The notes under the pieces were generated by a model. The model did not search any database. It saw only the letters and a list, made by a program, of their open reading frames with translations, and was not told where the DNA came from. From a virus: a stretch of 21,357 bases of DNA. This document shows, piece after piece, positions 2,921 through 21,357 of this stretch. The translations under genes were made by a program, and so were the position numbers. The stretch lies in IMG/VR virus record IMGVR_UViG_3300024999_000455, positions 1 through 21,357 of that record; one strand, 5' to 3'. How positions within the stretch are numbered: the stretch's first letter is position 1; each line of letters starts with the position of its first letter.

Positions 2921-2964
2921 AATTTAGGAAATGTGTAGAGAAAATTAAAATAATTGTGTGGAGG
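2889..2964 (+). promoter_or_regulatory. Anti-Shine-Dalgarno switch before GIY-YIG gene
   Basis: The segment 2889-2898 pairs perfectly over 10 bp with 2932-2941. Alternatively, 2890-2899 pairs over 10 bp (one G-U) with TTGTGTGGAG (2954-2963), which contains the Shine-Dalgarno GGAGG (2960-2964) of the endonuclease. The two pairings exclude each other, and both would form a pseudoknot with the 12-bp stem at 2853-2910. The layout suggests that read-through mRNA is translationally silenced. Pairing is read directly; the switch function is inferred. Confidence 0.5.
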
Positions 2965-2974
2965 ATGATTAGAA

Positions 2975-4147
2975 ATGAATAAAAAATTAAGTGGTGTTTA
3001 TTGTATTAAAAATTTAAAAAATAATAAAATTTATATTGGTAGTAGCATTGATATTGTAGATAGATGGAGACAACATAAAAGAGAATTTAGAAAAAATATA
3101 CATAGTAATAAGTATTTACAATATTCTTGGAATAAACATGGCAATAGTAGTTTTGAATTTTCAATAATAGAAGAATGTAATGAAAATGAAACTTTAGAAA
3201 GAGAGCAATATTATTTAGATTTGTATGAATCCTATAATAGAAATAAAGGATATAATATTTCAAAAAGTTCATCTGCTCCAATGATGGGAAGAAAACATTC
3301 AAAAGAAACATTAATTAAATTAAGCGAAGGAGTTAGAAGTAGAGATTCTTCTGTTTGGGTAAGAGGAGAAGATAAATTTAATGCAAAATTTAAAGATAAA
3401 GACATTATTATAATAAAAAGAATGATATATGAAGGCAACAGAATTATAGATATAGCAAATTTATATAATGTAGAACCTAATACTATTACTCAAATAAAAA
3501 CAGGTGAAAGATGGTCACATATAAAAACTGAATATGATGACTTAATTATTCAAACACCGAGACAAAAATTAAATGAAGAAAATATAATTGAAATTAAAAA
3601 ATTATTAATTGAAGAAAAATTAAATATAAAAGAAATTGCAGACATTTTTGAAATTACATTTGGTCAAGTATCTTCAATTAAAAATTTAAATAGTTGGGAA
3701 AATATTGGTGAAGAATATAACGAACAACTAATAAATAGATTATCTGTTAATAAATTAGATAAAAATAAAGTTATGGAAATTAAATATTTGCTTTTAGAAG
3801 GGAAAAGTTGTTCTGAAATAAGTAAAATTTACGATGTTACTCCTTCGACAATATCTTATATAAATCAAAATAAAACTTGGAAAGATGTTTTAATTGATGA
3901 AAATAATGTTTCAAATAAGGTATATCTTGAAAAAGGAGCCAAACCTAGTTCAAGAATTCCTATAATCCAATTATCAATTGATGGTAATTTTATAAAAGAA
4001 TGGACATCAGCATCTGAAGTTTCTAAAGTTTTAAATATTGATGCTAGTGCAATAGCAAAATGTTGCAAAGGAAAACAATTAACTTATAAGGGTTATAAAT
4101 GGAAGTATAAAAATGAATATACAAATGATTTAAAAGTAGTTATTTAA
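2975..4147 (+). CDS. GIY-YIG homing endonuclease with three HTH-like repeats
   Basis: A free-standing homing endonuclease that would nick or cut phage DNA near its own insertion site. The N-terminal nuclease (1-100) has GVY (7-9), YIG (20-22), Arg30, the LEREQYY glutamate (75/77) and Asn94 in GYN, so all hallmark residues appear present. Residues 103-120 (MMGRKHSKETLIKLSEG) match the NUMOD3 DNA-binding motif. Three repeats follow at about 141-185, 199-245 and 262-305. Each has the pattern IKxLLxEGxxxxEIAxxYxVxxxxIxxIKxxxxW, like small helix-turn-helix units. Residues 328-378 form a NUMOD1-type module ending in YKGYKWKYK. The gene lies between the terminase-like gene and the small-terminase candidate, behind its own structured leader. 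GGAGG precedes the ATG by ten bases. Confidence 0.9.
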   Translation: MNKKLSGVYCIKNLKNNKIYIGSSIDIVDRWRQHKREFRKNIHSNKYLQYSWNKHGNSSFEFSIIEECNENETLEREQYYLDLYESYNRNKGYNISKSSSAPMMGRKHSKETLIKLSEGVRSRDSSVWVRGEDKFNAKFKDKDIIIIKRMIYEGNRIIDIANLYNVEPNTITQIKTGERWSHIKTEYDDLIIQTPRQKLNEENIIEIKKLLIEEKLNIKEIADIFEITFGQVSSIKNLNSWENIGEEYNEQLINRLSVNKLDKNKVMEIKYLLLEGKSCSEISKIYDVTPSTISYINQNKTWKDVLIDENNVSNKVYLEKGAKPSSRIPIIQLSIDGNFIKEWTSASEVSKVLNIDASAIAKCCKGKQLTYKGYKWKYKNEYTNDLKVVI

Positions 4148-4164
4148 AGGAGGAATGTGGCTTT

Positions 4165-5196
4165 ATGCCAAGACCAAAAAATACTAATAGTAATACATCT
4201 ATAAAGTCACAAAAAAAAGTTTCACAGATAACATGTGCAGCCTGTGGAGAACCTAAAAAACCAACAGAGTATTATGTTAGTTATAATCCAATTCATCAGA
4301 CTTCAAGAATACCATACTGTAAACCTTGTTTAAAAAAAATGATTGCAGATGATAAAGGGATTGTTATTTTAGATAAAGTTAAAGAAACATTACGATTGAT
4401 TGATCGTCCATTTTTATATAACATATGGAAATCTTCTTTGGAAGATAAAATGGATACATTTAGTACATATATAAAAAATTTACAACTTTCTCAATATCGT
4501 AAATTAGGATGGGAAGATTCTAAATTTTTACCAGAGATTGAAAACGAGTTAAATTATGATAACTTAAGTAGTGAAAATATATCTCAATCGGATTATAAAT
4601 CTAATTTTATAGTTACAAATGAAATAATAGAAAAATGGGGAAAAGGTTATAAACAAGAAGAATTTGAAGCGTTTGAAAGAAAGTATGTTTTATTAAAAAA
4701 TAATTATAAAGAAATAACTAATTTACATACTGAAGCATTATTGAATTATATTAGATACAGAGTTAAAGAGGAAATTGCAACAGCAAAAGGTGATGTAAAA
4801 GAAGCTAAAGAATGGGGAGAACTTGCAAATAAGGCTGCAACATCAGCAAAAATAAATCCTAGTCAATTAAGTAAAGCAGATTTATCAGATGGACTCTCTA
4901 CTTTTTCAGAATTGTCTCAGGCAGTTGAAAAAGAAGTTGATATTATACCTATCCTTCCAAGATTTAAGTATAGACCAAATGATGCTTTAGATTTTAATAT
5001 TTGGTGTTACGTAAATTATATTAGAGATTTAAGCGGTTTACCACCATGTAATTATGAAGATGTATATTCTTTTTATGATAGGAGAAAAGAAGATTATATT
5101 AAACAATATGGAGATCCTTATGGAATATTTACAGATGATACTACAGAAAAAAATAGAGATAAAATAAAAATCTTTATTAAAGAAGATGGTGATTAA
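4165..5196 (+). CDS. Zinc-finger protein, candidate terminase small subunit
   Basis: AAAGGAGG precedes the ATG. Residues 24-55 form a four-cysteine zinc module (Cys24-x2-Cys27, Cys52-x2-Cys55), preceded by a basic, serine/asparagine-rich tail. The remaining 280 residues look helical and charged; residues 150-215 are long amphipathic helices (KWGKGYKQEEFEAFERKY onward). The TAA stop abuts the ATG of the large terminase, implying translational coupling. Position and DNA-binding potential suggest the packaging-recognition (TerS-like) role, but it is far longer than a usual TerS and lacks an obvious N-terminal helix-turn-helix. A conserved phage protein of another function remains possible. Confidence 0.6.
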   Translation: MPRPKNTNSNTSIKSQKKVSQITCAACGEPKKPTEYYVSYNPIHQTSRIPYCKPCLKKMIADDKGIVILDKVKETLRLIDRPFLYNIWKSSLEDKMDTFSTYIKNLQLSQYRKLGWEDSKFLPEIENELNYDNLSSENISQSDYKSNFIVTNEIIEKWGKGYKQEEFEAFERKYVLLKNNYKEITNLHTEALLNYIRYRVKEEIATAKGDVKEAKEWGELANKAATSAKINPSQLSKADLSDGLSTFSELSQAVEKEVDIIPILPRFKYRPNDALDFNIWCYVNYIRDLSGLPPCNYEDVYSFYDRRKEDYIKQYGDPYGIFTDDTTEKNRDKIKIFIKEDGD

Positions 5197-8826: not shown

Positions 8827-8859
8827 ATTTAAAATAAATTTATTTGGAGGATGATGATA

Positions 8860-12387: not shown

Positions 12388-13389
12388 ATGGAAAGAAAAT
12401 ACTTTGAATTAGCAAAAGCTACATATAATAGAGAAGATTCAGTAGTTGATGGTATTACATATACTTCTGCTGAAAGAAATGAAGCATTAAGAAATGCTTT
12501 TAAGGAATTAGTACCTGATGGTAAAAATAGGTATAAGAGTTTCAGAAAAAATAAAAATGAAATATTTGAATTAGTAGAAGAAAATGTAGATGAAATTCTG
12601 CCTAAGAGAGTTGATGATGCCTACGGTGGTTTCGTTGAATATCAAATGTTAGACCAAGGACAAAAACCTAAATTTAAAACTAAAAAAGGTAAAAGAGGTT
12701 TACTTAACTTTATTACTAAAGTTGGTTTAGGTGGTGTAATTGAAAGAACAAGATTAGATGTTGATTATATTAATATGACTATGGAAGCATATGGTGGTGC
12801 AGTTTATGTCGAATTTGAGCGTTTTTTAGACGGAGTTGTAGATTGGACTGATTTAATTAATGCTATTGTAGATGGTATTATGGAAAAAATTAATCTTCAA
12901 ATTCAAACTACTTTAATTGCTTCATTTACTGGTTTATCTGCTAATATGAAAGTACAAGCTAATGCTTTTGTTCCTAGTCAAATGGGTCAATTAATTACAA
13001 ATGTTCAATCTTATGGTGATAATGTAGTTATTTTCTGTACTCCTACTTTTGCAGGTACTATTGAAGAAACACCTGGATTTGTAAGTGATATGGATAGAAC
13101 TGAACGTAGGGAATTTGGTAGAATTGGTAAATTTAGAGGTGCAAGTGTTGTTGTATTACCTAATGCTTTTGCTGATGATACTAATACTACTAAAGTGTTA
13201 AGTGATCAATATGCTATTATTGTAGCAACTAATGAAAGTAAGATTGTTAAGATTGCATTTGAAGGGGAAACAATTGTAAGAGAAACTGAAAATGCTGATA
13301 TGAGTATTGATTTCGAAAGTTATCGCAAATTTGGAATTACCATTGTTTATAGCAATTACTATTCAATGTATAAAAATGTTGCCCTTTAA
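12388..13389 (+). CDS. Major capsid protein, HK97 fold
   Basis: AAAGGAGG lies eleven bases before the ATG. The 333-residue protein has features of an HK97-type capsid protein. The charged N-terminal arm is rich in Arg/Lys/Glu. A long central helix is likely at 150-180 (DWTDLINAIVDGIMEKINLQIQ). The P- and A-domain segments include NVVIFCTPTFAGTIEE, EFGRIGKFRGASVVVLPN and YAIIVATNESKIVKIAFEGE, and it ends MSIDFESYRKFGITIVYSNYYSMYK. The sequence ARG-free stretch GKFRGASVVVLPNAF followed by a peripheral-domain strand is typical of phage capsid proteins that carry a Firmicute-type C-terminus. It follows the scaffold and decoration genes and ends at a strong terminator. Confidence 0.85.
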   Translation: MERKYFELAKATYNREDSVVDGITYTSAERNEALRNAFKELVPDGKNRYKSFRKNKNEIFELVEENVDEILPKRVDDAYGGFVEYQMLDQGQKPKFKTKKGKRGLLNFITKVGLGGVIERTRLDVDYINMTMEAYGGAVYVEFERFLDGVVDWTDLINAIVDGIMEKINLQIQTTLIASFTGLSANMKVQANAFVPSQMGQLITNVQSYGDNVVIFCTPTFAGTIEETPGFVSDMDRTERREFGRIGKFRGASVVVLPNAFADDTNTTKVLSDQYAIIVATNESKIVKIAFEGETIVRETENADMSIDFESYRKFGITIVYSNYYSMYKNVAL

Positions 13390-17750: not shown

Positions 17751-17792
17751 TATATAGTTAATACAAACATAATTTAAAGTGAGATGGTGATA

Positions 17793-20653: not shown

Positions 20654-20682
20654 TTGACAGATTGTAAATATAATAGTATAAT
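20654..20682 (+). promoter_or_regulatory. Consensus sigma-A-type promoter
   Basis: TTGACA (20654-20659), a 17-base spacer and TATAAT (20677-20682) match the vegetative consensus exactly. The start of transcription would be near 20689. It is the only perfect promoter I found in the window and drives the endonuclease-like gene through the leader at 20686. Confidence 0.9.
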
Positions 20683-20685
20683 ACG

Positions 20686-20770
20686 AATAGGGATAGGTAG
20701 GAGTAATTACCCTACTGATAAGAGCCTCACCTCTTCCCTATTTAAAATTTTGTGAGGGAAAAAGTGAGGT
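20686..20770 (+). promoter_or_regulatory. Structured leader with anti-Shine-Dalgarno loop
   Basis: An 8-bp stem (20686-20693 with 20735-20742) encloses a hairpin (20697-20701 with 20711-20715) and a small hairpin AGAG/CTCT (20721-20734). The six-base loop of the latter, CCTCAC (20725-20730), is complementary to GTGAGG at 20752-20757 and again at 20764-20769, the Shine-Dalgarno. A rival fold pairs TTCCCT (20734-20739) with AGGGAA (20755-20760) and CCTCAC with the Shine-Dalgarno, and cannot coexist with the 8-bp stem. The pairing is seen; the regulation is inferred. Confidence 0.55.
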
Positions 20771-20777
20771 AATAAAT

Positions 20778-21357
20778 ATGTTAATAACTAAAGAATTATA
20801 TGTAAAATGGAATCCAACAACTAGAAAATACTATGAAAATTTAGGGCATGAATATACTAAACACAATGATGAATTTTTAATTCCTATAGAACATTTACAT
20901 CATGGTTCAAATAAATACATAGAATTTCAATGTGATGAATGTAATGAATTTGATACTAGAATATATCGAGATTATGTTTTGTTAAAAACTAAATATAATA
21001 AAGATATATGTGGTATATGTCTTAATAAATTAAATATGAAAAATAGAAGTTCAAAAGCAAAAACAAAAGAAGATTTTGGATATTATACTAATCATGAGAA
21101 TATAAAATATGAATTAGATAAATATTTAAAAAAGTATAATGAATTATCAAATATGATTGACAATACAGAAGGTAAAAGATTGTATGATAACTTTCATAGT
21201 CATAAAGATGATATTTATGATACTGCAATAGAATTAGGTTATAAAATAGAAGATATTTGTAAATCATTACCTAAAAATTATTATATCAAGTATCCTGAAA
21301 TATTAAAAGAAAAATTATTAATATCCATAGAAGAAAATAAAAGATTCCCTAAAAGTA
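20778..21357 (+). CDS. Endonuclease-like zinc-finger protein, 3' end outside window
   Basis: ATG 20778 is eight bases after GAGG; the frame stays open to the window edge (193 residues). The N-terminal block LYVKWNPTTRKYYENLGHEY, then KHNDEFLIPIEHL and a four-cysteine zinc site (Cys52, 55, 78, 81), is the DNA-binding head common in phage homing endonucleases. Later GYKIEDICKSLPKNYY and ENKRFPKS resemble their spacer motifs (a RFP box typically preceding a helix-turn-helix and a Vsr-like nuclease). The nuclease itself is beyond the edge, so the activity is not demonstrated. Confidence 0.65.
   Translation, partial: MLITKELYVKWNPTTRKYYENLGHEYTKHNDEFLIPIEHLHHGSNKYIEFQCDECNEFDTRIYRDYVLLKTKYNKDICGICLNKLNMKNRSSKAKTKEDFGYYTNHENIKYELDKYLKKYNELSNMIDNTEGKRLYDNFHSHKDDIYDTAIELGYKIEDICKSLPKNYYIKYPEILKEKLLISIEENKRFPKS

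Follow-up and report, generated by a model that had tools for sequence, protein, structure and literature searches.

Two endonuclease leaders in the window

The window, a 21,357-nt stretch of viral DNA (positions 1 to 21,357 of IMG/VR record IMGVR_UViG_3300024999_000455), ends within a zinc-finger homing-endonuclease-like gene that starts with an ATG at 20778, runs on the plus strand until the window end cuts it (20778..21357), and matches the homing endonuclease family phrog_12131 (E 4.9e-12). Its leader, on the same strand, folds as a three-way junction of helices P1, P2 and P3. A promoter that agrees with the consensus at 12 of 12 positions (TTGACA-17-TATAAT, 20654..20682) places the expected RNA start at about 20689, inside P1. 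This helix pairs AATAGGG (20686..20692) with CCCTATT (20736..20742). The core AUAG (20693..20696) leads into the P2 hairpin (GTAGG-AGTAATTAC-CCTAC, 20697..20715), which carries the palindromic hexamer TAATTA in its loop (20704-20709), and the core UGAU (20716..20719), which reads YGAN across the family, leads on to the P3 hairpin (AAGAG-CCTCAC-CTCTT, 20720..20735). The loop of P3 is gene-specific and constitutes an anti-Shine-Dalgarno sequence, here called C (CCTCAC, 20725-20730). Two complements of C follow, both reading GTGAGG: a decoy, C' (20752..20757), and the Shine-Dalgarno sequence itself, C'' (20764..20769). The three helices are supported by covariation, AUAG belongs to the conserved core of an RNA family, and the P2 loop and the C elements were assessed by the palindrome survey and the complement test reported below.

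A second leader precedes a GIY-YIG homing endonuclease gene (ATG 2975, 2975..4147, plus strand; PF01541, 50 bits). Here an outer stem of 12 bp (2853-2864/2899-2910) encloses a hairpin (2871-2889) with the palindrome TCATGA (2878-2883), followed by C (CTCTACACA, 2890-2898). Downstream on the same strand lie C', an exact complement of C (2932..2940), and C'' (TGTGTGGAG, 2955..2963), which pairs with C through one G-U and overlaps the Shine-Dalgarno sequence. P3 and the junction core are absent from this leader. Only two relatives carrying the 2853-type leader were found, L003 and L004, in which C and C' change together, from UCUACACA/UGUGUAGA to UCCACACA/UGUGUGGA; in L004 the hairpin loop also changes from UCAUGA to UAGCUA.

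An earlier note on this DNA had proposed the same order of elements, from outer stem to start codon, before both genes. This order is borne out in each leader, with every element present where it had been placed. The elements at 20686 are real, but a third helix, the loop palindrome and the promoter had been overlooked, and the anti-Shine-Dalgarno sequence is the loop of a separate hairpin, P3. The order is alike in the two leaders, but their homology is unsupported, since the covariance model described below as R2 gives no match at 2853 (a score of 9.9 bits, with E 0.052 in 251 bases and an alignment out of register); the 2853 leader is either a reduced relative of the other or the same plan reached separately.

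The folding z-scores of the two window leaders are -1.90 and -1.85, with 8 and 9 of 200 shuffles as stable. The check that the note had suggested looks for a segment able to pair both with the ribosome site and with a stretch lying before it; evaluated against 200 shuffles, it was not decisive. With Watson-Crick pairs only, the leader of the 20778 gene was equalled by 17/200 shuffles and that of the 2975 gene by 192/200, and two ordinary genes, at 17784 (6/200) and 20207 (5/200), scored better than either leader. In one sequence alone the leader pattern is weak and not significant, and the proof is comparative. For the 20686 leader, comparison across phages settles what these single-sequence tests leave weak, and by this evidence the leader at 20686-20770 is real and a member of a large RNA family.

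A family of junction RNAs in phages

The leader is kept before four relatives of the zinc-finger gene and also precedes the GIY-YIG gene of two large phages, the product of which is 39% identical to the GIY-YIG protein of the window. A degenerate core pattern returned 60 stretches of viral contigs, about two-thirds of which were the same RNA on inspection. A covariance model, R1, was grown from five equal-length members from five other phages, because MAFFT alone misaligned P3; the window leader was outside this seed. R1 was built from pattern matches, and its alignments lean toward its own structure. It returned 60 matches at E <= 1, in 57 loci, and found the window leader at 59 bits (E 3.5e-12). 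The model rebuilt from these 60 matches, R2, which include the window leader and three weak matches (E 0.19-0.91), scores that leader at 68.9 bits (E 1.2e-11) and yields a first set of 66 matches from 62 sources (65 once one duplicate is dropped). A second set was gathered by two further patterns, in which GAUAG and the P2 loop alone are fixed (82 and 78 stretches). R2 found 55 matches in 75 new loci and 49 in 56 new loci; these 104 rows reduce to 91 distinct ones, 88 of them with enough sequence. The DNA patterns that gathered the members were blind to the genes downstream.

The family has one layout, in which P1 closes the junction, AUAG leads into P2 and YGAN out of it, and P3 starts with AAG and ends with CUU. 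Pairing was found in 94.0% of 1292 pair cells of the first set, compared with 70.2 +- 0.8% in shuffled alignments and 42-53% with slid partners, and 318 cells show double changes (89 +- 8 when shuffled). In the two halves of the second set 92.3% and 88.8% of cells are paired, with 235 and 196 double-change cells, values reached by 0/500 shuffles. Compensatory changes occur at 16/21 pairs in the first set and at 15/21 and 16/21 in the halves of the second, where pairing of the first A of AUAG with the N of YGAN is without support. The leader had previously been taken for conserved architecture rather than copied sequence; for the 20686 leader this does not hold, as it belongs to an RNA family whose members are homologous and keep a common core (GAUAG, YGANAAG, CUUC), and is thus more than a shared architecture.

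A -10 box or a Bacteroidetes -7 box adjoins P1 in 41/63 members of the first set (null 15.6 +- 3.4, max 24) and 70/87 of the second (null 14.9 +- 3.5, max 27), so the RNA mostly starts at P1. Three leaders (L023, L025, L026) lie directly after a tRNA gene.

The P2 loop carries a central 6-nt palindrome in 57/65 distinct leaders, of seven kinds (UAAUUA, UAGCUA, UCAUGA, UGAUCA, UUAUAA, UUGCAA and UCGCGA), with two bases before the hexamer and one after it. L007, unparsed by the script, reads UAGCUA by eye. Among distinct central 10-mers 22/27 are palindromic, against 3.6 in shuffled sequences (max 10). In phage G014, which has three leaders, each palindrome is of a different kind.

Loop C and its two complements

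C differs in nearly every gene, with 46 distinct loops among the 57 first-set members that could be parsed (8/65 could not). We compared each C with its downstream region and with downstream parts swapped between members. The longest complementary run averages 7.18 nt against 4.93 in the permuted control (max 5.28), and a second, non-overlapping run averages 6.28 against 4.25 (max 4.51). With the 46 distinct loops only, the two runs are 7.15 and 6.17 (4.82 and 4.17 permuted); in the second set (n=88) they are 7.20 and 6.08, compared with 4.72 (max 4.99) and 4.08 (max 4.24), and both reach at least 5 in 80/88 members. This test is not circular, because C' and C'' lie outside the covariance model. 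In the 45/57 first-set members passing filters, C' starts a median of 16 nt after P3, and the median distance from the end of C'' to the start codon is 7 nt. Members with Bacteroidetes-type promoters also have C'' at the start region, though in these it is not a Shine-Dalgarno sequence. The matched changes across phages thus show, at the level of sequence, both the junction and the double complementarity of C.

For the same 45 members, the mean duplex energies of C:C' and C:C'' are both -10.30 kcal/mol. This equality is partly expected, as both sites complement the same loop, and it fits a poised switch.

Genes downstream of the leader

The suggestion that the leader recurs as a control module of mobile endonucleases in phages gains strong comparative support for the 20686 type, but the genes served are not endonucleases only. 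Proteins of at least 70 aa were available for 54 first-set genes, of which 50 were scanned (the window gene was scanned separately; L014, L088 and L150 were left out). Of those scanned, 31/50 match Pfam families linked to homing or to nucleases at E <= 0.01, a count that takes in the treble-clef family DUF4379 and one GIY-YIG match below the cut-off. Six more first-set proteins (18 given) match endonuclease PHROGs. Other first-set genes encode a DnaB-like helicase (L035), a replication initiation protein (L113) and an antirepressor (L162), and the remaining proteins include some without any match. Among 85 second-set proteins (three shorter than 75 aa were left out) we found HNH_3 (37), NUMOD4 (32), DUF4379 (8), HNH (5), GIY-YIG (3) and phage integrase (4) domains. 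Hence the leader belongs mainly, not solely, to homing nucleases, and these come from unrelated families: HNH, GIY-YIG and treble-clef.

By eye, at least four further first-set genes encode GIY-YIG proteins with TAG as glutamine. Genes open only under this reading lie at 3918-4706 and 5160-5939 in L025, 462-1304 in L163 and 1099-2355 in L050; two of these phages have many tRNA genes, and all three are likely amber-recoded.

Two isolated phages also carry the leader: Bacteroides phage C3_41T2LP has three copies, and in Parabacteroides phage PD491P1 it precedes a gene annotated I-HmuI. Up to four leaders (at 631, 2957, 6824 and 10402, two of them weak) occur in the 13-kb stretch L070, where genes for treble-clef nucleases follow the two strong ones. 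The same NUMOD4-HNH element is found behind the leaders of L022 (1000-1069) and L032 (3759-3828); its gene is interrupted by stop codons in L022 and open in L032, and the leader is nearly identical in the two despite those stop codons.

The two other endonuclease genes of the window, at 8851 and 13493, lack the leader, as had been noted before, and R2 finds one site in the window. By eye, relatives of the two proteins carry it elsewhere (L041/L069/L070 and L148/L150, respectively). Conversely, the leader is absent before the zinc-finger relatives of Lactococcus AM2, Geobacillus E3 and Bacillus Goe17 and before the GIY relatives L005-L006, and 20 further phage records with homing-type genes or a weak motif, most of them from named phages (T4 and phage G among these), gave no match at E <= 0.01 (best 0.10). 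In 84,980 genomes of bacteria and archaea the pattern returned 24 stretches, of which the model confirmed none; within the reach of this pattern, the family was therefore found in phage records only.

A possible switch of translation initiation

Homing endonucleases are selfish genes that have to cut DNA and yet do no harm to their own phage. We think it fairly probable that the leader acts in cis to switch translation initiation between two states. The compact three-way junction would present loop C. In an ON state C would pair with the ribosome-site mimic C' just behind the junction, leaving the real site free; in an OFF state it would pair with C'' and hide that site. The two pairings would be mutually exclusive, and some signal would tip the balanced system. 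Of the two exclusive states that characterise a riboswitch, the structure and both complements are seen, and the exclusion we infer. A homing gene with its own promoter and its own putative brake would have its expression contained wherever it lands. Counting against a switch, C' is nearer and is transcribed before C'', so the leader could be fixed in ON and pair with C'' only rarely. An alternative helix that would unlock P1 gained no support, as pairing of the P1 3' arm with the spacer between C' and C'' scored 3.93 (3.98 permuted), and this test found no conserved partner locking P1 away in the OFF state.

How such a switch might be set is a further matter. The two halves of the P2 palindromes change in step, which suggests that two copies of the RNA pair with each other, as in the kissing loops of retroviruses (PMC7357161). 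It is conceivable, if on the unlikely side, that the P2 loops of two leaders kiss through them, so that the state follows the amount of mRNA. In the HIV-1 DIS loop two bases precede the hexamer and one follows it, as in P2. The DIS kissing loop likewise has a 6-nt palindrome in an apical loop, with conserved flanking purines (PMC7357161), but it is not related to the phage leader, in which dimerisation is putative. Furthermore, most of the P2 hexamers are all A-U, so weak binding is expected; nothing visible connects a dimer with C; and the palindrome, present in 57/65 leaders, could also be a DNA site.

Rather unlikely is an orphan riboswitch, in which the core GAUAG and YGANAAG would bind a small molecule or ion and favour one pairing. 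In its favour, the core bases are few and nearly invariant and the C:C' and C:C'' energies are balanced, but the pocket would be small and the genes encode DNA-acting enzymes without a common pathway.

The junction together with a C:C' pseudoknot might instead shield the mRNA by halting 5'-3' exonucleases such as RNase J, in the manner of flaviviral xrRNA. A flaviviral xrRNA blocks RNase J1 and shows the same topology (PMC5760640), a three-way junction with its L3 paired downstream, and the 5' end of the leader RNA lies at P1. We regard this as improbable nonetheless, as it does not account for a further complement of C at the start codon (C''), and xrRNA has no sequence in common with the leader. 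It also differs from the leader in place (3' UTR) and function.

A timing hairpin of the T4 kind masks the ribosome site in read-through transcripts alone and leaves it open in those that begin at the promoter of the gene itself. This is known for I-TevI, segB and mobE, where RNA from the late promoter lacks part of the structure (PMC2988022, PMC3014915). These, too, are structures over the ribosome site of a phage homing endonuclease, but as described they are simple hairpins timed by promoter position, with no junction core and no decoy copy. The promoter of the leader lies before P1, hence its RNA holds the whole structure, which makes this explanation very improbable.

Finally, a DNA operator or transcription terminator would account for the palindromes and for the U-rich stretch behind the P1 3' arm in many A+T-rich members, but is barely credible given that compensatory changes track RNA helices, that C'' lies at the start codon, and that L055, L057 and others have no U run after this arm.

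Relation to known RNAs

Rfam 15 gave no match over the window leader and no curated-level match over the leaders of 15 loci. The int-alpA model (RF02996) matches a single member, L264, at 31.9 bits (E 0.004, or 2.9e-5 in 171 bases), below the gathering cut-off of 35.8. A fast search with int-alpA hit 0/22 records and also missed L264. Like the leader family, int-alpA is a three-way junction, of 71 nt, with a core of CUAG and CGAAAAG, the latter being present in 10/88 second-set members, and its 3' tail AgGG is complementary to CCuU of its last hairpin loop. Judged as an int-alpA RNA, L264 has the junction with UAG and CGAAAAG, but its score, the best of any member, stays under the cut-off of 35.8 bits. 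The differences are that the window leader and the other scanned members are unmatched, that Rfam files int-alpA as an sRNA gene, and that its model lacks a second complement at the start codon. The neighbours of int-alpA are, as the name says, an integrase and alpA; phage integrases stand behind the leader in 4/85 second-set genes, most being nucleases.

Because the core is shared and one member is weakly matched, the leader family can be seen as a wider relative of int-alpA; from their sequences, int-alpA looks like a distant branch of the same superfamily, of which the leaders would be the wider, unrecognised part. In the one paper that we found to name it, int-alpA is a predicted sRNA only, and the open literature searched contained no description of a shared leader of phage homing genes. 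The family is thus probably a new and wide variant of cis-acting phage leaders, predicted to switch translation initiation of homing nucleases. It is an unlikely, more speculative extension that unrelated homing genes share a protein-free RNA that counts transcripts, with kissing dimers shifting C between decoy and ribosome site and int-alpA as one branch.

If nucleases of the HNH, GIY-YIG and treble-clef families do share an RNA brake, the control unit would spread independently of the enzyme. With C reprogrammed for each gene and the frame constant, the leader would offer a natural template for programmable translation switches, and the family gives int-alpA, now filed as an sRNA, a testable function.

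Matches to other RNAs were also observed. A weak fluoride riboswitch match at 12577-12630 of the window scores 23.2 bits, under the cut-off of 34; it falls within the gene at 12388-13389 and is probably due to chance. A group I intron (92.6 bits) lies at 1353-1571 on the minus strand of L208, at the same locus as the leader, and a DUF2693-FD RNA (59.4 bits) at 2125-2175 on the minus strand of L033, a contig that also carries the leader.
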